Translations under genes and position numbers: made by a program
Shown: piece by piece, positions 27,378-54,743 of the stretch
How the letters are laid out: each line of letters starts with the position of its first letter
Position numbering within the stretch: the first letter of the stretch is position 1
Notes under the pieces: model-generated
What the model was told of the DNA's origin: nothing
The model's input: only the letters and a program-made list of their open reading frames with translations
Database searches by the model: none
From: Straminergon stramineum
Lineage: Eukaryota; Streptophyta; Bryopsida; Hypnales; Calliergonaceae
NCBI GenBank assembly: GCA_963920665.1
Contig: OY987263.1
Coordinates: forward strand, 36,692,547 to 36,756,546
Reading direction: 5' to 3'
Length of the DNA: 64,000 bases

Positions 27378-27387
27378 GCTAACTAAA

Positions 27388-27570
27388 CAACAATGCTAGC
27401 AAGCGAGCCTAGAGCGGCGAGCTTGAGAGCCTCGAGTGTGGAGCCTATGAGCCTAGAGCCCCAAACATGAACTTTATTTTAGATTTTAGATTTTATTTAG
27501 ATTTATTATTATTTATTTATAAAAATAGAAAAAACTTACTATTTATAGTAAATTTTGAGACCTATGACCG
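27388..27570 (+). repeat. Left TIR region of the 15.5-kb element
   Basis: It starts CAACAATGCTAGCAAGCGAG and continues with repeated GAGCCT/GCGAGCTTGAG words and, at about 27556, GACCTATGACCGTG. All have counterparts in the reverse complement of 42780-42865. The TIR is diverged between the two ends. Confidence 0.7.
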
Positions 27571-28396
27571 TGATTTCCATTATAGCCCTATGATCGTGTG
27601 GTATTGTTTTTTTTGTTTTTTTGGCTTGTAATTTTTATTCTCTTTAGAAGAATTTTATTAAAGTTCTATACAATTACATGAAAACTTCATTTGGCCCAAT
27701 AAATTTTAAATATGTAATCAACTAGAGAAATTCACTACAAAGCAATAAAATACCTACAATACAAGGCTCATAAAATAAAGATTGGAAAATAACAAGCCTC
27801 CACTACAACTATACTAGACCTATCTATTCAATTGTCATTTACCTTAGAATAGGGATAAAGAACAATGGCATAATTAGTAGCCTCACAATATTTGAATGAC
27901 CATCAAATTGCAATCTCATTGACCTCTTGTAGATATACTCCAACCTAATGGAGTGATTCCCCCCCAAAAAAAATCACAAAATAATGTGCAAGTCATCAAA
28001 AAATCCACTAAAAAAAGAAAGAAAAATGGTTATAGGATTTTAATTATTAATTACTAGTTATTAGTGTGAGTTTTTGGATATAGAGTCTACTTCCAAAAGT
28101 AGGCAATAAGGATAGACCTTCTTTTCCATGTCCTTGAGAATTGACAAGATCAAATACCTCTAACAAACTCTTTATTAACTCATAATAGTCTTTGGACCAA
28201 CATTCTTCCTATATTCAATATCAAGGTAAAAGGTTCCATGAATACTTTGTCCCTTTACTTCAATGATTGAATTGACAAAGGTAAATACATAATGAAGGCA
28301 AATATTTGGTCCGCTACATATGATTAGAAGCTTTGCATGTCTGATTCCTCATAAGCATTATGATGCTCATGTACTACCCCTAGTTTTGGTCTATGC
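27571..28396. other. Element DNA between left TIR and transposase gene
   Basis: AT-rich, without a recognisable ORF or motif. It may contain the 3' untranslated part of the minus-strand transposase transcript. Confidence 0.4.
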
Positions 28397-31300
28397 TTAT
28401 TCCAAGAAATTTATGATCCTAGCTCGAACAAGGAGAAGCTTCAATTCATTGAAGTTGTAACTAGGTGCATGAATGAACTTGTCGTTACAAATGTCCATTT
28501 TGCAAAAATACCTAACAAGGTAGTACAAATGCTTACAGTTCACATATTGTTGACGTCCTCCTATAGCAAAGACAACCATGTTCACAAAGTTTGGGCATGT
28601 ACAAGCTAGAAACATGCCCATTGTAATTTGGTAGACGTTCATGTTTGGCATTGATCCACTCTCCCGAGATACTATGGCGCCGAGGCCTGGAAAAGGAAGC
28701 AAGGTGACACCCAAGATCGTCCCTTTGATATTCCTTGCACTCTCCTACTTATTTCATTGTTCAATTGTAGGTGCGTTTGCAAGCTGACGGATGGTTTTGT
28801 TATTCCTCACAATTGAATACACATCTGGGTTGGAAGGTGGCAATTGATCATACAAAACTGTCTCGAATATCTTTGATAATGTGAAGAGACAGTGTGGAGA
28901 CATTGTAAGTCGTTCTTGTAGACAAAAGCTAGCATGTTGCAGCATCAATGTCTCTTCTCTATCTAGATTCGTCCCTATCAAAACAGGCCACACCTCTAGA
29001 ACTTTTGGCCAATCAATAACCCATTTTCGCTTAGTTCCTTTGACATATCGTTCAATATCATCCCAACAGAACCAAAAGTCAGTCACCACTTCCTTACGAG
29101 TACCATAGTCCTCTTTTCTCCCACGATATGTTGGAGTAGGTCTTCCCTTTGGTCCCTTTGAGATTTTGGCTATGCACTTCATATTTGATTCACGTTGTTG
29201 AGCTTGACATCTACTGTTGGATTTGTGATTGATCCTTGCTATATACCACTTTGATGTATCACAATTGCTCTCCAAGGCCGTTGTCACATGAAGCCCTTTT
29301 GCATTTATTTGCTTTGGGAGTTCCACGCTTTTGAAATACTCTCCTTCTGCCCTTGTGGATCGCATCCAAACTTGATGTTGGGAAAAGTTCACTTTGTTTG
29401 GGCAATGTGAGTCTCCTTCCGAGCCAATGGGAAGATCCAATTTTCTCTTTGTACTTCCAAAGACCTCCTCCCCTTCCAAATGAGGAATATGAGTCCCAAC
29501 ATCCTCAGCCCCAGGTAAGGTATTTAGCGCCTCTGCAATCTTTTTGGGATCTCCACTACGCCTTGCAGCCTACAACTTCAACTCCCCCTTCGATGGACCA
29601 GATCCAGAAGCATGGCCCTTCAAATATGCCTAATAGTTTGTCATTTGCATCCATGCACGAATACTATTGTCACAAGTGGCATCGAACAAATTGTTCCCCC
29701 AATTTTTAGACATCTGCAGCCACTTGTTGTGAATGGTTTCCGACAAGTTGCAAGAGGACATGTCCACCATCTCCTCCAAACTCAAATCTTGTAAAACAAT
29801 TTGATATTCCCATTTCAATATACAAATACAATCTACAACTTCATATAAAATGATAAATTCTAATTTCATATCCAAGAACAAATGATGTGAAAATCCTATA
29901 TACTTATAGATCTTTCCAAAACACCTTTTAGGATCAAAAGATATTTTAGGAAGACCTACTTGTATTTTACATTCTAGATGTTTTTACAAATATTTTCATC
30001 ATCTTACCACAACACAAAAGAAATGAAAAAAATAACATATAATGAAAAAATAAAATATATTTTAGTATAATATTATAATTTAATGAAATAAAAAATAAAA
30101 AATTAGACTTACCATTTGCATAAAGCCGCCCCATTGCCTATAGCGGAAATGCCAGAATGCAAGCCAATGGTCCAAATGATGAAGAGCATCTTCTGTTGTA
30201 GCCCTAGATGAAAGCCACCATGATCGAATGGCAAGGTAACGTGTCTCTACCTCCTCCATAGTTGTCGAATCTTTGTACTGTTTGCAAAGTCGAGTGTGTT
30301 GATGTTGAAAATCTTCCTTGATGTGTTTTTGAGTGTGTTTTTGAAGAGAACTACTCCAATGCAACAAACATGTCCTTTCACATTGCACCATTTTGTCTTC
30401 TGTAGAACCAGTGCCATAAACAATACGAACTGTATTCCAATTGGCTATGGCACTATCTGCCATGAAGCCTTTGAATTTTGGATGATCAACCCCGCATCGA
30501 GACATGACTACATTTAAGCACTTCTAGAACTGCACTTGGATCTCCGTATCTTTAGACTGCATATCACACACTACAATAGTCATCACCTTCTTGTAACTGG
30601 GGTCATACACGTGGCACACCATTGTTGTTCATTCCTTTACGCGCTTCACGTGGTCAAACATGACCCATTCGTTTTTAAGGTCCCCTCCAGGTTGCATGCG
30701 CTTCACCACGTCTACCCTGCTATCCGGTCCCTCGGTCAACATCTTGAATATGTATACTTTTTCCTTGCCTTGGCCAGGGAAGACGCTATCGTGTATGTAC
30801 TCAAATTTTGAGTCCTTCTTCATGGTCATGATGTTGTCGATAACACCTCCCTGGTTGCTTGAGTGAAAGGATGAAATTACATTGCATATATTTGGACTGC
30901 TCAAATAATGGAAGCGATTCATGACCTCCTCTAATTGTTCACCCCGTAGCATCTCCTTGGGTCCTTCTTTGTTGTGGAAAAGATAGTTGCTCAAAAATTG
31001 TTTACTTGCAGCTAGAACAATTGTAGAGTTGGTGGCCATAGGTGTTTTGCCACCTCCTCTACAATTAGACCAGAGATAGTCTCTACTGAATCTCGGCACA
31101 TACCTTTGGCTATAGGATGTGTGTAATCTCCAAAATGAATAGCAGCTCTAATCATTTTGGAATTGTTGCCATAGCAATAGTAGATCCTAGCATCGCATAC
31201 ATTCAAACAAATAGGAGGTGTTTTGCAAACCTTACATACAGGAGTAGAATCTCTGGGAGCACAATCGCCTATTGAAAATGGATAGGTTATACTACCACTC

Positions 31301-32271
31301 GACTCCATTTCGTTTCTTTTTGAAGATCTCTTCAAGTAATCACAATCGTGATTTGTACAAGCAAGATGGCCTGCACAATATGACTTCCTAAACTTCAGGT
31401 GGTCATTGTTGTGAATGTTGGTCGTCACAAGTTTGCACCATGGGTGTCCATCATATTGCTTGTCCATTCCCTCCAAGTTCCTCGCAGCTGATGAAGAAGC
31501 TGATGACCGACATGGAGGCAACTCAAATATGACATCTCCATTGAATATTGGAGGTAGAAATTGTAATCAATGGTGCTACATGCCTTCAAAATTGATTGTA
31601 GATAATTCGTTCCTAGAATGATGCACAAAAAAAAGTCTTTTCAAGCAATCTAGGATGGACACTCAGTCAACCGGATTTGGATGCAATGGGGGTCGAGAGA
31701 AGTTTGAATTTGCAGGACTACAAGATGGAGTGCCAATTGTTGAAGTACAAAAAGGCTTCACATCCCCAACTATTGGAGAAGGGAAACTCTGTTTAAAAGA
31801 TGGTAGATTTGGAGACTCTCCTTTTGATTCACTTGACAATTGAATGATAGGTTCTAGAATCTTTTTCTTCACGAAACATAGTATGCTATTTGACACAACG
31901 TGGTCATCGTCATTTGATACAAGATTGTCAAACAGTAGTGGAGGCACATATGGCATGTCTACTGTGGATGTATCAGATTGACGACTATGGATCTCAATGG
32001 AAGCTACAAGGAGATATAGAGGCAATCCATAAGCTCTAAAACTACCTTCTTGAAGATACCAACAATGTCCCTCTTCCTCAAAGGACTTCAATATAGGTAT
32101 AGACTCCTTCAATTCCAAGCTCTCTGACTTCAACTCTTCTTCAACATAGATGGATGACTCTACAAATCGAAAACGAACATGGAGCAAGTGAGTGGATACT
32201 CTAGCTAGCCCTTCTTGGTTTAAAGGGAACACCAATGGCACTTCAAGCTTGTCTGCTCTAATAGATGCCAT
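28397..32271 (-). pseudogene. Decayed DDE/SWIM transposase gene (Mutator-like)
   Basis: Read on the minus strand. 32271-31663 is a 202-codon N-terminal part. 31521-31040 is a cysteine/histidine-rich domain (FRKSYCAGHLACTNHDCDYL, then PVCKVCKTPPICLNVCDARI and IHFGDYTHPIAKG), a likely DNA-binding zinc module. About 31050-30112 is the RNase H-like core with MFDHVKRVKE..TTMVCHVYD, then GFMADSAIANWNTVRIVYG and the CLLHW motif, which follow the D...D...CxxH layout of MULE transposases. A donor GTAAGT follows at about 30112. 29709-28754 continues the C-terminal part; 28640-28400 has a SWIM-type finger (ACTCPNF ... VNCKHLYYLV). Damage: a frameshift near 31050 and stops at 30629-30631 and 30524-30526, both where W is expected, plus two more near 29640 and 29565. 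The third acidic catalytic residue could not be placed. Confidence 0.7.
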
Positions 32272-34907
32272 CTCAAAATACTAAAGAAGACTATAGACAA
32301 TGAAATTTAGAAGAGTGATAACGTTTAGAAATGTTGAACCATGTATGGTATTTGGAAATTGAAAGCATTATGAGCATTAGAGACGTTTCTCAACTGCATT
32401 TGGAGTATGATTATGGACAATAGCAATTAAATAGACTATTGAATTTGAATTCAAATTGATCTTGAAGAGTTCCAAATTCAAATTGTTGTGCTATCATATG
32501 TTAGAAGATTATTAAATACAAGAAATCTTCTTAAATAGATTGAAGGCTATATTAGAGATGGATCCACATCATTGAATAATGAGTTGTCACTAGCATGATT
32601 GAAAGGTCATGTATACAAGTTGGAGCATTTTTTGACAACTATTCTTAACAAGATGGAGACTAAAATTATCTAGGTACGTGATGACAAAAATTAAAGAGGA
32701 AACCCTCAACATGGATTTGAATAGAAGAAGTCAGGAAAAGTGGTTAAATCATGTTAGAGACTCACTCAATTGTTTTTATAACTGCACCAAGTGCTAAGTG
32801 GTTCTCCAAACTTCCTTCATAGCGCAATTACTATATGTCATACTTGTAAGAGTGTTATATAATGTTCTATATTCTAAGATGACCCTCATAGTTCATTGTG
32901 AAGTTTGCTAGTTTCCATGCTTTTAGAGAATCAGAGCGTAGTAGGTGTGTGTGATAATAGTACGAGAAAAAAGCATAGGAATAGGTCCTTTTTTTTTTCT
33001 TCACTAAGGGCATTGAAGAGATCTAGAATGAAAGGTAAAAAATTAGCTTCAAAGAGTAGGCAATCTAGTCCTGGAGACACTTGCAAGGTTCTTTGCTTTG
33101 GTGGACAAGAGCGTGAAGAAACTTTGGACACTTCTTAGAACACCTTAGAGATGCTTCAACAGGAGGCAACGGAGAGCGAGGGGAAGCTCATTGGTTTTTT
33201 GCAAGAAGAAATGCTACAGACTACAAATGTAAGTTCTTCTAACTACTTCACCTTGCTAAGTCCATCACTTACTTGCCTTTACTAATTTCATATATTGTAT
33301 TTATTTCTAAGGCGTTTAAATTTTTTTGTAACTTCTAGTCAACTAACATTGTTTAGGAATCGTTGTGGGATATTCCTAGCATTATACATGTAATGGCTAG
33401 TATATTCTAAACCACTTAACTTTGTTTTGAAATCAATATTAGACTTCCTTTGCATTTGTTTTACATAGTTGGGTACAATGTTTGGGAAGTGATAATTAGC
33501 AAATACTCCCTATATTATTTCTAGTGATATCTTACTAAAGATAGTAGTAGATTTGAAAAGTATTTTAGGAAATGATCGTATGAAAGAAAACATACTATTA
33601 TATTTTAGATTCAAATTCTTTAAAATAAGGAATGCATATCAATGTCTTGAAGTTGCATCTTTGAATTCCACAAATGCATTTAGTTTTCTATTCAACCAAA
33701 AATACAAAACAAATTAATTTGACAGAATTTTAAGCCCTTATTTGCAAAGAAACAATAAAATAGGAACACCCAAAATCAATTGTTTTTCTTGGTTTCACTA
33801 TCTTAAAAGTCAAGTAAAAAAAACATTTGATGAGATTTTAAAGTGAACTCAATATAAATGAAACCCAAGTGGTATTGTAATTTTACAATGCTCTAAAATT
33901 ATTTTAGAAACTTTCAAAGTTGAAAAGATAAGGTAGTCTACAAGTAAAAATAGACTCACCTTGAATGGTCATCTTTGACATAGGAAGTGTCTCAATAGTC
34001 GTAGGTCTACCTTTGGTCAATTAGATATTTCATGGTCAAGAGACATTTTGGTATATTTTGGTACTTTTCTATGGCTATTAATCCTATTATTGGAATCTTT
34101 TTTTAGAATCTTTTGTATCAATTAGCCATGCTCTATCTATACTTACATCCTAATAAGACTCAATAAAACTTCTAATAAAAATTAATAATATTTTCTGTGT
34201 GAATTTTGTTTGGCTATGTATGACTCTAAATTATATTTCTTGTAATTGAATTTAGAAATCTTCAAGAAATCATGACATTTTTATTTATAAATTCAATATA
34301 CTATTAAAAAAATCTAGAATTTTTTGGAGATATTTGGAAAGAAATTCAAGAGCCATTTTTTCATTTGTAATACTTCATTCAATAAAAGTTTAAGAAAAAA
34401 TCCAATTGTTGCTAAAAAGCTCCAAACAATATTATTTTGCACTTAATAAAAATCTTCAAAATAATTTATTGGTATTAAGAGTTATTTTCACTAATAAGTT
34501 TGCTTGAATTACAAAAATATCAAAAGGAGCCTTGTATCCACCAAGCCTAGGAGATTGAATTTCCTTTTTAAAATTCCTTCTCATGAATACAAATTGAAAC
34601 CCTAGACTTTTGATCTATAGTGCCCTAGATTTTACAAAACTTAGGGATTTGGATGGCCGCATGTTGTGCAACCATCTACTCGGTGTTGTTCCCGAGATTT
34701 GGGCTCAGCATTGTTCTTCAGATTTCTACTCGGCATTGAAGGTTGGCATGTGGCTTCTTTGCACACGTCTTTGACTTTGCACCCTTGCCTTCTTGTTTGT
34801 TCACTATTGCGTCTTTGCTCCACATCTCTGTTTGCAATACCTTGATTCCGAGTTTTTCATTTTGAGTTGTTTCTTTGTGCAATATTGTGCATAATCAAGC
34901 ATTAGTC
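32272..34907. other. Divergent intergenic region of the 15.5-kb element
   Basis: It lies between the 5' ends of the two element genes and probably holds both promoters. One possible plus-strand exon at about 32905-33229 encodes a basic then acidic stretch (LKRSRMKGKKLASKSRQSS, later TLEMLQQEATESEGKLIGFL). It has one TAG at 33136-33138 and ends at a good donor GTAAGTTC. It might be a 5' exon of the ParB/methyltransferase gene or a third gene. The rest is AT-rich and featureless. Confidence 0.4.
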
Positions 34908-34979
34908 ATGAGGACCACACGTAGCAAGGGGAAGGCCCAAGAGCAAGAGTAGGGAACCAAGCGCCAAAGAGAAAACACT

Positions 34980-37798
34980 GTGAGTCTTTTCTTCCCAAAG
35001 TTTTTAAAAAACTAGCATGAAGCGAGGTAGTAAATTGATTTGTGTGTCTATAGTTTAAGTTGCTAGTATTGAGAACATGAATTGTAGTAACACTAGCTTG
35101 AATTTTGAAGCGCTTCATTGTTGATTTTTAGTTTTAATTAGGTTTAGTTTTAAATTTGGGGGATTCCATAAGGACCTTGCGAGAATGTCTTCGGTCCCGA
35201 AGGTAGACTCTGAGATGCGAATTGGTATATACGTTTCTTGACAGTGAGGAAGAGTCAAGTCACTATAAATTTGGAATTTGCACTTTTTGTATTGAGCTAA
35301 AGGAAGGTAGGCTAAAGGATACAAGTACTGTAATTTAGAACTTTGCCATTTGTAACACATGATTCTCAACACACACATAGAGTATTGAAACTTGTTGAAA
35401 ACTTAGAAGAAGATCCTGTGCTAGCTAAAAGAATATACTGCACCTATTCTTGCCTTGTTTGATCAATTTTAATATTAATTCCAACTATTTTTTTAAACAC
35501 AATTGGATTTTGCTTGGCTCAATCAATTCAAATAGAAAGAGGGGAGTAAGGAACTTGTTACAGGCAAGTAAGTATGAGAATGCTACTCAACATTATTTAT
35601 AAGTACATAATTTTGTATTTGTATAGCTGAAATTATATTCATGTAATCTAGTCTCTATTTAGTTAATTGTCGATTGGGAAAGTTAGTGATGAGTATTGAT
35701 GAACCCAACTTGATTAAAGGAGAAAGAAATGATCAAAAGAAGATAAGAATTTACATTTGGGACCCAATTACACTTAAGTAATTAAAAATGCTCTTACTCA
35801 ATTCCATCTTGGTTCAAACCTATTTCAATCCCAATGAGCACTGGTAGGCACTGGAAGTTAGATTATTAAGCATTCAGGTGAGTGTTGATGTAACAATGTG
35901 AATTCTATAAAAAAAAATTTGGCGCTTTGGGACTCATATGGTGTAATGTTTAAACCAATGGACTTTGAATGTATTTTCTAGAGCTCAATGTGTGTTGAAG
36001 ACATATTGGACAACTAGATTATGGAAATGGAATATTTTCATATTTTGTTTATAAAATTTAGAGCACTATTTGTATGTGTCTTCAACATTTTTCAATCTTC
36101 TGATGTGTGCTTAAAGCTTAAGAATAGAGTTCTTGAAAATTCTATCAAAAATATCTCAATGTAAGGCAATTGAATAATTGGGAGAATGAATATATTCTTT
36201 TCTTCAATAACAAAATCTAGACTTGGATGTAGAGGTAAGATTGGTGTTTGACAATGTATTACTACACTTGTGCTTTTAAAGAGTGTACTTTTACCATCTA
36301 GAAGCCAGCCCTATAAACGTAGTCATAATTAGACTCTCTGAATTTTGGATTTTGAGAAGTCTAAGCTTCCTTAAATCTTGCTGATTCTCAAGAAGATTAA
36401 TAGTTGGTGAGGTTGGAATAATAATTAGAAAATTCTTTTTGAAGTATCATTGTTGGTTGAGGTTGGAACTATATGGTGGTTTAAATGTATGTATTCAATT
36501 ATTCAACCATTTGAACTTGACTATGTGGATTGGATTCAAAATTTTCAATCCAATTCTTTTGTTTTGGAGATACCAAAGGGAACTTCCAAGAGGCCTTCGG
36601 TTCTAAAGGGAGTACCACAACTATAATGTGGTATCCCCAAAACTCTAACTGTACACCTAATTTTTCAACTTCTTGATAAGAGTGAAGTAATGGGTCTAGA
36701 AATTTGTTGTTGTGCATTTGTTGTAATATGCATGTGGTCCTCACTGTTCATTTCAATTTTGCTATACTTAGAGTGAGAAATTTCAGATTTTGGGGATATC
36801 AATTTAACACCCCAAGAAGGCCTTTGGTCCTGAAGGGGCCACTATAACACTGAATTGGTATCCTCGTTTCATGCAAAATAATATGCAATCAATGATCCTC
36901 ATTGTGGGAGATTCCATCATGATTAATTGGCAATTGAAGATGCAAGTTGTAGACTAGTAGATTTAAATTTTTAGTAGTTTAGCTCTTTATATTATTTTGG
37001 AATTAGTTCATGTGAAGGTCATGGCTAGGGTGAAGTTGACCTGGCCATTTAGAAAAAAGAATGTTTATTAATGAGAATTTTAATTCCATTGTTGTCACAA
37101 AAATGATGTTTCTGGTAGGATCAATATTATTCTTGACATTTTGGCACTCTTGAATCTTGTTTGGTTAAGTGTCCTTAGAAATTGAAGTTTTTCATTTTTT
37201 ATTCTTGAATTTTAGAGATACTAGAGGGACCCCCTAAGAGGGCCTTCGGTCCCAAATGAGGTCCCAACAGAGGTCACTAGTATCCTTATTTAGAGCTGCA
37301 AATTCCTACAATGAACCAATTAGTCAAAGACAATTAAAGTAGATCCAATGGGCAGTCTTCAACCAATAGAAATGTTCATATTGTATATGAATTATAGGGA
37401 TACCAGAGAGACCTCTCAAGGGGGCCTTCGGTACCAAAGGGGGTCCCCGAGGTGACTACTAGTATCTCCATGTACAATCACGAAGTCCTACACTAAATGA
37501 GTCTATTGACAACAATTGAGGAATGAGGACCAATCCAATGTGGGCTTCAATCATTAGCAATGTTTGATATGTTAAATGGAGATACCACAAAGACTTGTTA
37601 GTTAGGCCTTCAATTCTGAAGGGAGTCTCGAAGAGCATAGTGATATCCCCATATTGTAAATGTCTTTTGGATAGTTGCACGCATTGATTATATTTTTTAT
37701 TCATTTTTGAACCTTGAAGTTGAACTTTATTATATTTTATTCATTATGTACTTGTCTAACACTATGTTTTTATGTAATTGTGGATTTGGATCTTATAG
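34980..37798 (+). other. Long first intron of the ParB/methyltransferase-type gene
   Basis: It is bounded by ACT|GTGAGTC at 34979/34980 and by an acceptor TTATAG before about 37799. It has no sizeable ORF of its own. It contains all six copies of the palindromic repeat listed separately, none of which I saw elsewhere in the window. Confidence 0.5.
35159..37651 (+). repeat. Six palindromic iterons of ~75 bp
   Basis: Copies lie at about 35159-35231, 36562-36641, 36790-36866, 37212-37288, 37395-37470 and 37576-37652, all in the same orientation. Each has outer arms of the form GGRGATACCA ... TRGTATCYCC (for example TTTTGGAGATACCA paired with TGGTATCCCCAAAA in copy 2) and a central dyad near AGGCCTTCGGTYCCRAAGGG, with GGGACC/GGTCCC in copy 4. 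Spacers are unrelated, so these are iterated sites and not a simple tandem array. Their place beside a ParB-domain gene is suggestive of binding sites. Confidence 0.8.
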
Positions 37799-40700
37799 CC
37801 TGACATGGAATCACAAGAGCTTCTTCAAACTCAAGGTCCCCCTCTAGCAATGGATGGCATAGATATTTTTTCTTCTCCTCCCCATATCCCTATTTCAAAT
37901 ACCCCTATGGTGGTGAGTCTTGAAAATCTATTGGGTGCGATTGATAGGTTGTGGGATTTTTCAGATATGCAAATGAATAGTTCAAACATAACTTCAAAAG
38001 CTTTAAAAAAATTGTCTTGTATTTTCAATAGAGAGTTCTAACACTAGAGGAGGATGGTTTACATTAGACAATAAGTCCCATGGATCAGTTTTGAGTTTAC
38101 TATTTGAGTCTAAGATTGAAAAGATGTAACAAGTAGGAAATCATAAATATTAAGTCATTGAAAGTGACTAGACCTCTAGATTTAAAGCATTAATTCATTA
38201 GCCTATATTCATCTATATGATCAATAAATGTGCATTCTTGAAAATCAATGAGATTTCTATATTGTCAATTGAAATTTGGAAAATGTGATAGAATATTAGG
38301 CCAATACTTACCATTGTGCACAAATCACAATATGACAGGTCACCTCTACTCCAAAAAATCCTAAAGTGGATTCTATGATGGGTACTCCTAGAACGGATGA
38401 CACCCCTCAACCTGAGCTTGGTGAAGAGGGAGAAGAAGGAGAGGAAATGGAATGTGTAGAATTGGGTGACGAGGAGGAAGATAAAATGACAAAAGATCAT
38501 CTTCATCGTTCCCAAAAAGTGGACTCAATGGCAACTATTGCTAGCTTGAGGGCAAAGCTAAATTCATTGACTCATCTTCACATCCCCCTTTGCCGTATGC
38601 TTGCAATGCCAATGGTAAGACCAACTCTATCTTGCGATTTGGTCAAACTAGAGCAGGAATGTGTTCATGGTTATCATGAAGGGTCATCAGTTTTCTATGT
38701 ATCTACTACAAATGAGGCAGGCGAAAGCATCAAATGGACAACAAAGGAGAAGGAGGAGTGGGGGCCTCTTTGGAATGCAAAGAACGACAACTTCACAAAA
38801 TACTTGGATTCACATGAAGAGTTGCGACACATGAAGAACTTAAAGTTCTTTGTATGTGATGGCAATCACCGTCTTCGAGCATGGATGAAACACATCACTC
38901 GTTTGCACTCATTGGAAATGTCATGGCACTATGCTGTGGATTCAATCATCTTGGAGACAAAAGGACGTGTTGAAGTTGTTATGCAAGTCATGCATGACAT
39001 AAATAAGTAAGTTAAAATTAATTTTGACAGTCTATTATCAATATTTTTTATTAGCTCTAGAATATTGATATTCTCACTTATTCATTGGATATGTGAACAT
39101 TTTCATATTTACTTGAGAAATATGCAGGCAAAAAGAGGACTCTCACGTGAAGACAAACCTTGTACACACCCTTTACCATGTACAAAAGTATGGTCTTTTA
39201 CCTATGGAGAAGTTCAACAAATTGCTACGACCATCAGAAGTAAAGAAGTGTGGATCTCATGGTGCCCGTAAGACTTGGTATTCGATGCCAGCTGATGTAT
39301 TTACGTCATTTGTATTTCGGGTAAGTGTAATCGAATTTATATTTCAAATTCAAGGTTTATTATGTTGGATTATTGACATTGGCAATAAACTCATTTGACA
39401 TGATTGTGGTGAAGCAAGAAATCACCTCTGCTAGTGATGCAGCAGTGAGGACTTACCATGAGATTACATCTGAAGAAGATAAGACTCATGAAGGAGTAGC
39501 CAAAGCCATGTGAACTGCATCAAAGGAGAAGGCTACCAAATTAAACGCAAAGATGATGAAGTTATTGGCAATCGCAAACCCCGCACATGGCTTAGAGTTC
39601 TTGAAAGAGGTAATTGAATTTTGGAAGGACTAATTACATACATTGCATTCATTTTTTGGTAGTCTAATAAAATTTTGTTGCCCACGTGGAGAAACATTGG
39701 AGTTCTAGTAGTAGTCTTGAGATGAATTTCGAGAAGCTCCAACTGGTGGCCACATGCAATACACCACCCTACCATAAAGTCAAATTTCTGAAGTGGTGGA
39801 ACCTTTCAGTACCATCTCATGAAGCTCGAAAGTTCCCTTCAAAACCAGTTGGGGAGGACAAACTCACTACATTTTTGAATCAATGTGTATGGTATGCTAG
39901 GGAAAGCATTTTGATTTTGATTTTATTATATTAAAATATTCAATTTCAATTACCAACATGCTCATTGTATTAAATTCAAATAATTTAGTATTTTACCCAA
40001 TTATGGTGTGTTTCATATTTAGGTGGAAGATGCGGCCAATGAATTCTTCGATACTGTCATCAAGAATGACTCCATTCTTTTGGACATGGACTCTCCTTTA
40101 GAACTTGAGACGTTGACTGAATATATCAAGAGTGGGAGGATGAAGATTTGGGATCACGGGTTCAGGTCAATCTTAAGAGGCAACGACAACTTCAAGAAGT
40201 CCGACTCTTTTGCTGCCACGGATGGAGGTGGACAAGTGGTAAAACGTGTGATTTTCCGGTGAGTTTTAAAACATTCTGTTTTCTATATTTTAGAATTGAA
40301 AAGGGTTGAAATTGAGAATCTCTAATGTTCATATATTTTCACAAGTACTTTAAGCATGAGTTGTTGCCAAAGAAGGCAATCACGCGAGTGGATCTTCCCC
40401 CATTTTTGGCTACATGGCAAGACTGTACTTCGCTAGATTTCATGTTCACGGGGAATCATCTCCGAGTGTGGACCACAATACATCTTAGTGGTGTTGCTTG
40501 GTACCTCGATTGCTCAGGAGGGTATGTTCATCCATCTAAGGTACAATTACATGAAACTCTTCAAAAAATGGATGTGTAGGACGTGCAATCTAAAGAGTTT
40601 GATGGCATGGATGAAATGGCAAAAGAGAGGGCAATGGCTAGACGTCAAGTTGCCGATAAGAAGAAGCTTGATAAAGCAAAGGAAGAGCGTGAGAAGGCGG

Positions 40701-42779
40701 TGGCAAGAGAAGTGGAGAAGAAATTAAAGGCATTGGAGAAGGTTGCAGAAAAGGAGAAAGAGAAGGGAAAGGGAAAAGGTAAGAAGAAGGTGGACGGAGA
40801 TGTAGCAATTCCTGCATCATCTACAATAGACCAAGCCTCTGAAATGCCACCCCGTTTTCAGATGGGATTGAAGAGGAAGGTTGAGTTGATGCAGTTGACC
40901 GAGAAAGTCATTCTACATGGGGCTGATGTCGTTATCATAAGCGGAGATGATGAAGACAATGTGGAGATGCTCATTCTAAATGTCTCCATCAATGAGGTGG
41001 TAGAGAACATGGAGAAAGAGGCCCCCAATTTGTATACCAAGGTCATGGACTTCTTGAAGAAGGTATGGATTTTTTATCATTGTTATGCTATGTTTTTCAT
41101 GTTGAGTGTTCAAATTTTAATGTGGCTCAATTACTTATGATTTAAAATTTTCTTGTGTGGCAGTTATCAACAGAGAAGGATCAGATGTTTCATGGGAAGA
41201 TGAACCAATGGCCTGTGTTGACCTTGTCATTGTTGATTGTCACGAGAACTTGCCTATGCCAGGGGTATCTTCCCCACCAACTGCAATACCAGCGTGGAAT
41301 GCAGACGAGGAGTATGAAGCACTTCAATCTGCATTTTTTTTGCAGAAAAGCATCTCCAAGACCATGGTTGCCTCATTGTCATCCACTCATATTCTACCGA
41401 CTCCAAGGCCAATCTTGCGGGACTTTGCGAGACATATCAAATGTTGAAGAAGAAAGAATGGATGGGCATGAATTGACTTCACTTGACCTTGCCTTTCGAC
41501 ATTACTTGCACGGTTGATTAGCTTTATAATTTTATAAATTTGTGTTATATTTCATTGTACTATATTTCATTCATTTATGATCCTTTATTGTTTGGATGCT
41601 TTCAGACTCAAAAATTTGGGATCACCCTCATGGTGAAGGACCTTGGAGTGAAAGGAAAATCTAATTTTACTTTCAGATGCACTCTGACTATGGAGAAAGC
41701 TGGTATGGACATTGGACGAGACGACATCCTCATGAATTTCACCACCAAAGGAGATTTGAAAATGAATGGTACCAAACCATGGCGAGGTGCACAACAAAAG
41801 GATCCAAGGTTTTTTCAGCTCCTAATTGAAGTGACAATGGATGAAGGAGATGTTGTTTTTGATGTCACAGCATCCACTGGTGAGTTTAAAAAGAATGCTA
41901 TTGTGTTCTCCATTTTAAATTCATAAATTTGACCATTTTCTTCATGATTATGCTTTTGGAATTTGCTAGGCACGGCAATTATAGCATGTCATGGCACAAG
42001 GTGCCACATTGTAGCACTAGAGGAAGATGAAGAGATATTTGATGCTCTCCTCAAACCCATGATGAAGACTGAATCACATGTGGTGATAGCGGAGCCACAA
42101 ATTGCAACTATGACAACACAAAATCCCAATGCCATGATTGTTGTTCCACGAAAGTTTGCACGGAAGTCAAAATATAGTAAGTAAGTTGTTTCAAATTTAG
42201 TTTTTTGGTGTATTTGACAAATTTCTTGTTCTTTCATTATTTCAATCTAATGTTTGTTATTCCTTGATTACAGTTGTTGTGGACTAATGCCAAGAGCCCA
42301 AGATGAAGTCATGGAGAACCGGAGACTTCATATTAGTCCGCAAAAGCCATTTGAATTACCCGTGTATGTAGAGCAAATGGCATCAACATTTGTAGATTAT
42401 GGTTGTTCTAAACCAAAATCTCGTAGACAGACTTACGCACTTAATGTTCTACAATTTATAGATGGATTAGCATCAAAGTGTAGAGAGTCATCAAATTGGT
42501 CTTGTAGCGATGATTCATCTAATAAGTCCACTAGGACTTAGACTCATGAGATTGACATATCTCATGAGTCAAACTACTTTGTATTGGTTTTGTTTATGAT
42601 TAGATTTGTGTGCTTTATGGCTAAACCGCTTCTCACATGCATTTTTTAATTTCAACTATTCTTTAAATAATTCATTGGAATTAGATTATATAGAGGTGTT
42701 ACCCTAAACTTCAATTTAAAAAACAATATTGTCATATGCTCCCAAGAAAATAACTTTTATCTCACTTAAATTTTAAACA

Positions 42780-42865
42780 CCCAAACCCACGGTCATAGGT
42801 CATATTCTCTAAAAAATTTCACGCTCATGGACTCAAGCTCACAAGCTCGTTTGTTAGCAACCCTG
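42780..42865 (-). repeat. Right TIR region of the 15.5-kb element
   Basis: Read in reverse complement it begins CAGGGTTGCTAACAAACGAG and continues GAGCTTGAG, CATGAG and GACCTATGACCGTG, matching the left end block by block with gaps. The right target duplication GCTAATTAAA follows directly. Confidence 0.7.
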
Positions 42866-42875
42866 GCTAATTAAA

Positions 42876-51376: not shown

Positions 51377-54300
51377 ATGGAGGAAGACAATGAATTCAAG
51401 GAAGATGAATGTTGCTATTCTTCTGATTTTGAAGATGATTTGGAGTTTGCTCTAGGAGTGGAAGACATACTTCATAGAGCGGTTAGAAGTCATAGGTCTA
51501 TTTCTTCTCCAACCTTTTAAGATGCCTATTTCCATTTGTCAAATTTTGAATCTAACTCTGGTTCTAATGAAGATATGGAGGAGATGTTCCAAGGGCATGG
51601 TGGATAGAACTCAAACTTCACGACTTCTGACTTACCGTATTCATTAGATGAGCCCTCAAAACCTTCTTTTCATCATGTTTCAGTGGAATCTTCTCCAAAG
51701 TTTGTTCAATTAACAATTGGTAGTAGGAATCTCATGGTTGATTGTTTATGGAAGGAGACGTTCCCTACTTTTCTTGAGATTCGTGAAGTAGATGGAAATT
51801 TCCGTCTGTTTCTTAAGAGCCATGGACAATCTATAGATGTCAATGACATTATCCACACTCAAGAATGATGGGTGAAACTTCAAAAGACTTTGAAGTTTAT
51901 AGAAACCATTGATGGAGTTGGCCTTTCACCTTTAGGCAACACAAAACAAAGAGAAATTCCTCCTATTGAGAATTGGTCATCTATAGTGTCTAACTCTCAT
52001 GTGGATCCTAGTGGTAAACACTTATCACTACATGCTACCATTTCTTCCATACAAAGCAAGTAGAGCACAGACCAAAGGATAGGAGGTATTCCTCAATCTT
52101 ACATTGAAAATTGCATAAAATGTTGTTCAAGTTGTTAAGAAACACAACTTTGGGATGAGGTTCACAAAGTTCTTTGTGAGCTTCTTAATGACACACTTGA
52201 TGACATATGTAAGACTCACATTGTAGTACGCCGTGTGTATTCCACTATGCTTACAAAGCATCATAGGGTCACATATTACCGTTGCCATAGAGGTGGAAAG
52301 AAAAGGTGCAAGAAGAGAAAAAAACAAGAAGATGTTTCCATCTCAACATTGAGAAGAGAGAGGAAGTCTATGAAATGCCATTGTGAGTTCCAAATGAAAG
52401 TTATGGTGCCTCTTGAAAAAAAGAAAGTCTTGAAGGAATCCAACATCTCTATAGAAGTTGTTATATTTGTACATACAAAACATAGTGGACATCATCCAAG
52501 TATGGAAGTTGACAAAATGTTTCTACCTGTACATCCATTGGTTATTTCCTATGTGGTGGAAAATTTGAAGCATATGATATCTACATCTATTGTTGCATTG
52601 GTATCTGTTCGAGAAGAAACCAAGATACGAGCTATGGTTGGAGACTTGGAGCAGACAACATATAGATTCTTTCTTATTCCAAAGGAAGTTGAGCAACTTT
52701 CTTACTTCATAAGATTGAATGGTAATTTCCTTCTTCATTATTTATTTCCATTGCATACTTTTATATGTAATTATTACTTGAAATTTGATTGTGCATGTTT
52801 TTTGTTTTTTTCATAGATGCTTTGAGAATAGACGATTGGGATGCTGCAAATGTGGAAGTTTTGAGGCTTCATGAACAAGGAAAAGTCATTTTCTACCAAG
52901 AGTATTGTCCAAAGCATGAAGATCCATAATGAAGACCATTTGTTGTGGTAATACAAGACAACTTCATGAGAGCAAATGCCAAGCGGTTTTCAAGAGGTCA
53001 TTCATGGGCATTTGATTCCACTTTCAAAACAAATCAATATGATTTACCTCAATATGCCACGGTTGTTCCAAACCAAGATGGTAAAGCTATGCCTATTTTT
53101 TACATATTATGTAGTAAAGATAAGGATGAGGGTCATGAAGGAATAGCAATTCAACTTGCATTGACACATGTATTTTCGAAAATAGGAGACGTAAGACCAT
53201 CAGCATTCATCATAGATAAACACAAGACATCCTTGAATGCTATAAAACATGTTGTAAACAATGATAGTCATTGTTGGAAACATGGAAAACTTGGAGAAGA
53301 ACAAGTTGCAGGAAGAGTGTTATTATGTTGGTTTCATGTAATGAAGGCATGGAGTGAGAATCTCCTAACACGTGTCCCTATACCCAATAAAGATAAGGTT
53401 TGGCAAAGCCTTCATGTATTGTTGAATTGTCCACGGGAAGATCATTTTGAAGAGAATTTGAGAAAATTCTACACGGACTTTGAGCACATTCTTGGGGTGG
53501 AAGAATATATAAGATTTGGATGGGGGGATAGTACAGTGCCTTGGAGGACAATGTGGCCAAAATTTGGAGGGCTTTTTTCATATGGTGGCATGGACACTAC
53601 AAATCATATTGAGAGGCATTGGGAGTGGATAAAGTATACTCTACTTCAAGGGAGAGTAAACCAATCGGTTTGTGATTTAATTGTTGCCATCATTGGAAGT
53701 GTTGCAGATGGAAGTCGTACTAGAGGGCCTACTCTTATAGACCACTTCAAACAAGTATAAGCTATAAGTAAGTGTTTTCAATGTGATTGATGATCTTTAC
53801 TTTATATGTTTCAAAATACGAATATAATTATTATTGTGTCTAATTTCACGTTCATTTTTGGATATTATAGGTGATTCAGGGAGGTTTTCAAAAAGAGCAA
53901 ATGATAAACCTCATCAATGTTGTCTAGCAAGCGCAAAGAGACTATTCCGGAAGTATGAAAGTGTTCCTCAAGATATTTTGGAGGTACTTGATGCAAAACA
54001 AATGATATTCCACATCTCAAGTGAAACTTCTATTAATACTAGGTACATTGTGTCCCTAAGTACTCATTTTTGTGATTGTGCCTCTCCTGTGTCAACTTGT
54101 AAACACATTCTTGCAGTTCAGTTGATAGTGAAAAAATATTATGAGCACTTAAATGGTGAAGAAGCTCTATCTTCAAGTACAAGAATCAAACCTACAATTC
54201 TTCTTATATTTCAAGAAGTCGACAACGATGATTTTGTGAGTGAGTGTACACCAGACAATGGCAAGGGCAAAGACTTCTTACAAGTTCTATGTGAAATGGA

Positions 54301-54743
54301 GAATGTGATTCAAAAATTGAAGTCAAATATTGGACAATATGGAGATGAAGAATTGAAGTATAAGATTGATATTATGAAGGGATGCATGAATTCTATCACA
54401 GAGCCTTTTACATTTGCAAGGCCTTCTCCAATTACATTTCCATCAAAAGGCTCTATTTCATCCATTCAAGAAAATGTGCAACGTACAAGGATGGGACATG
54501 GTAGGACGTCAAAGAAGAAGGCCATAATGGAAGAAGACACAACCTCAATTTTAGGTCAAGTACGACCTACCTATATTGAGACCTCCACCTCACAAATTGG
54601 TGTCTACTTCAAAACGGAAGAAGACTATTTTTCCAAGAATTCCAAAGGTGATTTGTGATGCATGCTTTACAAGAACTATGATAGAAAAAGGTGACACAAT
54701 AGTATCTTGCCGTAATTGTGATAGACAAATGAAATCTACTTGA
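51377..54743 (+). pseudogene. MULE transposase gene (mudrA-like, DDE plus SWIM), with in-frame stops
   Basis: Exon 1 is 51377-52721, exon 2 is 52817 to about 53757, exon 3 is 53871 onward; the 52721/52817 join is exact (RLN|DALRIDDWD). N-terminal acidic region, then a Cys/His module (TYYRCHRGGKKRC ... KCHCEFQ ... HSGHHPS). Catalytic core in exon 2: WAFDSTFKTNQYDLPQYA with the first D, IIDKHKTS with the second, VLLCWFHVMKAW, and the acidic NHIERHWEWIK. SWIM finger in exon 3: FCDCASPVSTCKHILAVQ. In-frame stops at 51518, 51605, 51866, 52061, about 52136, 52927 and 52930 show decay. Exon 3 ends at TGA 54656-54658, but a one-base shift near 54630 opens a CxxC...CxxC zinc ribbon (ICDACFTR ... CRNCDRQ) ending at 54743, probably the original C-terminus. 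Confidence 0.85.

Follow-up and report, generated by a model that had tools for sequence, protein, structure and literature searches.

A gene for a predicted methyltransferase-fold protein in a two-gene transposon family of the moss Straminergon stramineum

We analyzed a stretch of 64,000 nt (hereafter, the window) from contig OY987263.1 of the moss Straminergon stramineum, within which lies a transposon carrying a transposase-like gene and, on the opposite strand, an accessory gene with introns. Comparison of these sequences with their relatives makes it rather probable that the transposon is one defective member of a large family with two genes and that the accessory protein, which has a predicted methyltransferase fold, is a non-canonical, DNA-binding partner of the transposase. 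The first-pass annotation of this DNA had placed a methyltransferase-type gene with introns inside a plant transposon, and this description was borne out.

The accessory gene belongs to the regular make-up of an abundant transposon family, as its second gene. The genome searched comprises 326 Mb in 59 contigs, and for each gene the best 150 scored matches were taken, out of 820 candidates for the accessory gene (searched with the stretch 38336-39010, and including the match to itself) and 767 for the transposase. At least 86 of the best 150 accessory matches had a transposase match within 16 kb, whereas random placement gave 2.4 on average and never more than 8 (200 trials). The nearest transposase lay upstream on the opposite strand in 79 of the best 150, at a median spacing of 8.07 kb. 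Among the matches listed, 64 of the best 150 accessory matches had no transposase partner; because only the best 150 matches of each gene were compared, the coupling counts may be underestimates. Coupling so far above chance indicates that the accessory gene is a standing part of the family rather than a single capture, and the earlier description of captured cargo therefore understated its place. A Pack-type capture, in which one element took up a host or bacterial gene once and has carried it as passive cargo, would suit a methyltransferase half that is bacterial in kind and a window copy that is broken, but it is very improbable given the recurring two-gene arrangement, the 10 exons intact in the diverged copy L027, and the purifying selection between wide pairs.

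This selection was assessed by comparing the ratio of nonsynonymous to synonymous substitution rates (dN/dS) in thirteen copy pairs; between old copies, purifying selection acts on the residues of the accessory protein. In comparisons of L013, L021, L023, L024, and L025 with L027, dN/dS was 0.06-0.11 in the part encoded by exons 3 and 4 (undefined for L021) and 0.13-0.31 in the methyltransferase part, ratios that are rough because dS was often >1 in the wide pairs.

The transposon is 15.5 kb long and occupies positions 27388-42865 of the window, the span over which two further copies (A and B, ~95% identical) align. The exons had thus been rightly assigned to mobile DNA, although the unit is wider than the 34908..42541 first proposed. 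Its ends, their flanking duplications and the transposase-like gene are located as follows:

27378..27387, no strand: left target-site duplication, GCTAACTAAA; the right counterpart differs at one base
27388..27460, plus strand: left terminal inverted repeat, imperfect, with a GAGCYT-rich subterminal array (six GAGCY in the first 100 bp)
28397..32280, minus strand: transposase-like gene with several broken frames in the window copy (six relatives have open frames of 731-782 amino acids)
42825..42865, minus strand: right terminal inverted repeat with a GAGC-rich subterminal part
42866..42875, no strand: right target-site duplication, GCTAATTAAA

The terminal sequences are related to each other (CAACAATGCTAGCAAGCGAGC on the left and, in reverse complement, CAGGGTTGCTAACAAACGAGC on the right), with the outermost seven bases mostly different. 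A 10-bp target duplication was found in three of four elements, in two of the three with one mismatch. That of copy A was perfect, with AGTTGGGACT on both sides, and that of a neighboring element consisted of the pair AGGACCAAAG/AGGACTAAAG; copy B had no target duplication at the element ends. Eleven of 16 diverged copies had the same right terminus at most 900 bp from the last exon, surrounded by unrelated flanks, and in L021 and L028 the common terminus was located farther out than 900 bp. These termini and flanks, together with the 10-bp duplications and the companion transposase, count against a large host gene family that arose by ordinary duplication without any transposon; such a family would have accounted for the introns and the many copies, but we find it scarcely credible. 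The outer 100 bp of the window copy contain six GAGCY motifs on the left and two on the right, whereas 1518 overlapping internal 100-bp windows contain 0.07 on average and never more than 1, and the right ends of 11 other copies contain 0 to 6. The subterminal GAGCYT/GTGAGCYT arrays at both ends (27388-27487 and 42766-42865) are possible binding sites for an element protein.

The accessory gene had been predicted to have about 12 exons between 34908 and 42541, and 12 could be placed. With the probable first intron, they are:

34908..34979, plus strand: probable first exon, with a stop at 34950 in the window copy (matched in copies A and B only)
35150..37659, no strand: probable first intron, which holds six ~86-bp repeats that are related to one another and have the shape of degenerate dyads
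37799..37912, plus strand: exon 2 (matched in copies A and B only)
38339..39006, plus strand: exon 3, which encodes the GNHR ("ParB-like") box (search stretch 38336-39010)
39128..39320, plus strand: exon 4
39415..39609, plus strand: exon 5, with a stop at 39511-39513 in the window copy
39686..39901, plus strand: exon 6, whose borders lack AG and GT in the window copy
40023..40258, plus strand: exon 7
40346..41062, plus strand: exon 8, with a Lys/Glu-rich stretch and a stop at 40577-40579 in the window copy
41164..41512, plus strand: exon 9, with the methyltransferase motif IV region VDLVIVDCHENLP and frame breaks in the window copy
41606..41879, plus strand: exon 10, encoding the methyltransferase core as far as motif I
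41970..42180, plus strand: exon 11, end of motif I and the next strand
42274..42541, plus strand: last exon

The window copy of the gene is defective, as it has three in-frame stops, frame breaks in exon 9 and lost splice signals at exon 6. Copy L027, by contrast with this broken copy, is open for 1106 amino acids through 10 exons, and every one of its introns is GT-AG. The exons are more than chance predictions, given this open reading and the 150 scored matches to exon 3. The peptide strings on which the gene had first been recognized are present in the sequence: FFVCDGNHRLRAW, the ParB-type box string, is encoded from 38846, PWRGAQQKDPRFFQLLIEVT in exon 41606-41879, and DVTASTGTAIIAC arises across the GT-AG junction 41879/41970. 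Among the matches listed in a search with 37 scored candidates out of 2596, none extended over the whole gene, and an intronless copy was accordingly not observed. Protein searches with the L027 reading returned no full-length relatives, and a pattern scan of viral contigs and prokaryote genomes returned no relatives. A third conserved open reading frame, of ~107 amino acids, lies just upstream of the accessory gene (L027:6812-7132, minus strand), with homologous places in 16 further loci; the window gave no match with an E-value under 0.09. It ends in HLSSDSDESVDID or similar, which we take to resemble a motif for interaction with the small ubiquitin-like modifier (SUMO).

Profile comparison and modelling showed a predicted beta-class amino-methyltransferase fold for the C-terminal domain. 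In profile-profile comparison with viral methylases (HHalign) the family reached an E-value of 8.8e-6, and both halves of the domain aligned in beta-class order. A fold search with the modelled relative P0037 matched CcrM and M1.HpyAVI, with the permuted motif order IV to I. All 11 family members (A1) matched PF01555 (N6_N4_Mtase) at E<=1, with a best value of 1.8e-5. The proposal of an N4/N6-methyltransferase C-terminal half is upheld by the profile-profile and fold comparisons, which are clear, whereas the single-sequence Pfam scores lie below the curated cut-off (the sole bit score shown was 19.5, vs. 26.7). A whole-genome scan with PF01555 gave no match among 47 candidates; a relative in the moss Ceratodon purpureus is already labelled PF01555, and 64 of 7997 scored candidate proteins reached E<=10 against a profile of the methyltransferase part.

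Several points weigh against our reading of the accessory protein. The fold model is that of the metagenomic relative P0037, which ends at motif I, and not that of the window protein, and a second profile (A5) compared with the same methylases gave a probability of 46 over 60 columns. One A1 member also matched the unrelated DHBP_synthase at E 2e-4, and single Pfam E-values of such size therefore prove little. Besides the high dS of the wide pairs, the close or recent pairs scattered in dN/dS, with single parts near or >1; the methyltransferase part of L016/L027 gave 0.91 and the last exon of L021/L022 gave 1.99. The scores below the Pfam cut-off, the empty genome scan and the DHBP_synthase match would also be expected if the methyltransferase likeness had arisen by chance and the domain were something else, but the profile-profile and fold results, the beta-class order of both halves and the label of the Ceratodon relative leave little room for this explanation, which we hold to be extremely improbable.

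The active site of this predicted domain is altered. The catalytic motif IV, (D/N/S)PP(Y/F/W), was present in none of the 17 copies and none of the 27 outside relatives in which the region could be read, and viral DPPYN aligned with DCPEN of the transposon family (HHalign). The 17 copies are those whose match covers motif IV, L028 having been dropped as its match begins behind the motif; their tetrad starts with D in every case, and its last residue is E in 16 copies, K in one and aromatic in 0/17. The outside relatives, in which a pattern anchored on the following LP located the region in 27 of 64 proteins, have a first D (26) or E (1), a last residue that is acidic (26) or K (1), and an aromatic residue in 0/27. 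At motif I, the first glycine is replaced by S in 11 of 11 A1 rows (STG, in the form D-x-x-x-S-T-G), and the relatives P0037, P0027, and P0038 have AGTG. The metagenomic proteins P0040, P0042, and several of P0044-P0057 form a diverged branch with motif I DWQCGVG or near it. As DPPY is replaced in all copies and relatives read, ordinary DNA methylation by the accessory protein is doubtful, and the suggestion that it marks element DNA is weakened. That the tetrad varies so little between distant relatives speaks for a conserved function other than textbook methylation.

Alternatively, the protein could be an active self-marking enzyme that methylates adenine N6 or cytosine N4 of element DNA through an unusual active site. 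The beta-class fold, the partly kept motif I and the purifying selection are consistent with such an enzyme, and the published work on a comparable Ectocarpus protein suggests a methylation role there (PMC12477816). We nevertheless consider it unlikely in view of the missing aromatic residue in motif IV in copies and relatives alike, and of the S for glycine in motif I. As the transposase's DNA-binding partner, the accessory protein would instead recognize element DNA, perhaps at the subterminal GAGC arrays or at internal palindromes, and the methyltransferase fold would more likely serve binding, sensing or pairing than ordinary base methylation. It would probably aid transposition or shield the element from silencing. 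METTL14-type partners, in which the fold has a binding or pairing role, provide a parallel. The transposon protein shares the permuted fold and the motif order IV to I with CcrM, M1.HpyAVI, METTL3-METTL14, and MTA1, but differs from them in its altered motif IV tetrad, which to our mind recalls inactive partners such as METTL14.

A ParB (PF02195) domain had also been proposed, on the strength of a single motif in exon 3, and this part of the annotation found no support. In 35 exon-3 sequences (A4), the GNHR box has NH in 35/35 and DGNH in 32/35; the R that a ParB box requires follows in 29/35 only. PF02195 matched none of 9 family members and nothing genome-wide (the control was positive in 10 of 14 genomes), and single-sequence Pfam and PDB profile searches were likewise negative. 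HHalign against viral ParB profiles, made with 37 ParB-methylase fusions (of 80 loci, 39 were used, and 2 of these were discarded because of stops) and with 18 of the 19 viral ParB loci, gave a probability <1, inside the shuffle range. The AlphaFold model of exon 3 was poor (mean predicted local distance difference test score, pLDDT, 41), and its fold search gave no PDB match below E 0.3. The tests leave a ParB domain unconfirmed in this protein; the negatives amount to absence of evidence, since the family alignments are shallow (effective number of sequences, Neff, 1.5-1.8). By eye, the predicted order of structural elements can be read as ParB-like. The best remaining argument for a ParB-like domain is by analogy with the Ectocarpus protein, which is described as being of like size and setting.

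Ten diverged copies were scanned for palindromes with 34-base arms, with a threshold above each of 20 shuffles of the window element. We found 22 palindromes of ~96 bp, in introns and between genes, in seven of the ten copies (L013, L016, L018, L021, L023, L027, and L028), and GTCGGATCCGAC occurred in 16 of the 22. This strict scan found none in L024, L025, L026 or the window element. A genome-wide search gave 178 occurrences of the core AGTCGGATCCGACT, compared with 0 for a control read backward, and the core is absent from the window copy; 38 of 50 listed core sites (of the 178) lay within 16 kb of a listed element match, where random placing gave a mean of 1.0 and a maximum of 5. Arms of the same site paired better than arms of different sites (0.68 vs. 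0.45 at positions 7-34 of 32 distinct sites, which include sites of closely related copies). When 96-nt strands were folded, two of three formed near-perfect hairpins (z -15 and -17) and the third had z -8. In the window intron 35150-37659, the dyad repeat pattern occurs five times vs. 0.04 expected; the fold z-score was below -2 in just one of the six repeats, and a gapped dyad scan of the window element did no better than shuffles. The palindromes may serve as protein sites or as RNA hairpins, or they may be small insertions of palindromic form. It is conceivable, with a low probability, that they belong to a recognition system of the element family's own, in which an element-encoded protein, its methyltransferase fold catalytically altered and its ParB-like module divergent, would bind them, gathering or bridging copies or guarding against silencing in the manner of parS, without methylation.

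The first-pass annotation knew of no described plant transposon with such cargo. No land-plant report was found in the literature, of which subscription journals were covered in part, whereas algal cases have already been reported. The Ectocarpus giant transposon Sola1-1_Ec32, of 21.5 kb, is described as carrying a gene for a ParB-like and N4/N6-methyltransferase protein of 1104 amino acids opposite its transposase, and the same work also cites cases from green and red algae (PMC12477816). By the definition given there, the moss element ranks with these cases, as a large DNA transposon in which a methyltransferase-domain gene faces the transposase from the other strand (PMC12477816). The two resemble each other in this arrangement, in the N4/N6-methyltransferase domain, and in a protein of ~1,100 amino acids (1104 vs. 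1106 in L027). Compared by description, they differ in that Sola1-1_Ec32 belongs to the Sola1 family, whereas the moss element is of 15.5 kb, has a 10-bp duplication and a transposase without a Pfam label; the ParB-like part reported for Ectocarpus was not confirmed in the moss element. Fusions of a ParB-CTPase with N6_N4_Mtase are known from phages (PMC12704722), and their methylase half is detectably related to ours (HHalign). The viral relatives that we fetched are ~400 amino acids long, with adjacent domains and DPPY (L059), unlike the moss protein, in which ~450 amino acids separate the two parts, DPPY is absent and ParB is undetected. What appears new is the moss as another host lineage, a transposon type unassigned by Pfam, the altered active site, and the element-linked ~96-bp palindromes. 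If our reading is right, a methyltransferase fold of bacterial type has been retained, as a second gene, by transposons of photosynthetic lineages far apart, in the moss family with a rewritten catalytic signature. This raises the question of methylation vs. sensing vs. DNA binding, for which several hundred candidates for each gene (820 and 767), the intact relative and the element-linked palindromes provide test material.

The assignment to a Mutator-like element (MULE) was not supported. None of six transposase relatives, chosen for their long open frames, matched the MULE domain PF10551, and a genome scan with PF10551 gave 26 places, none of them within the 27388-42865 element. Pfam, PDB profile search and HHalign against the window's own MULE likewise gave no superfamily match. 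Mutator-like elements have target duplications of ~8-11 bp, and the moss element, with 10 bp, falls inside this range; it also resembles MuDR (mudrA/mudrB) in its two genes and terminal repeats, but differs in the absence of PF10551 from its transposase relatives. The accessory gene is presumably not mudrB-like, and from a D...D..CxxH reading by eye the transposase may belong to the MULE/hAT group. The window's recognizable MULE transposase is a separate gene outside the element, at 52933-53760 on the plus strand (PF10551, E 7.7e-12), probably together with 52139-54658. By eye, this separate gene at 52.9-53.8 kb is followed by a SWIM-like Cys/His stretch. Elsewhere in the genome, three elements of the two-gene family, one of them known by its end alone, stand head to tail within ~31 kb on contig C3 near 27.76 Mb (L031, L032, L011, and L012).

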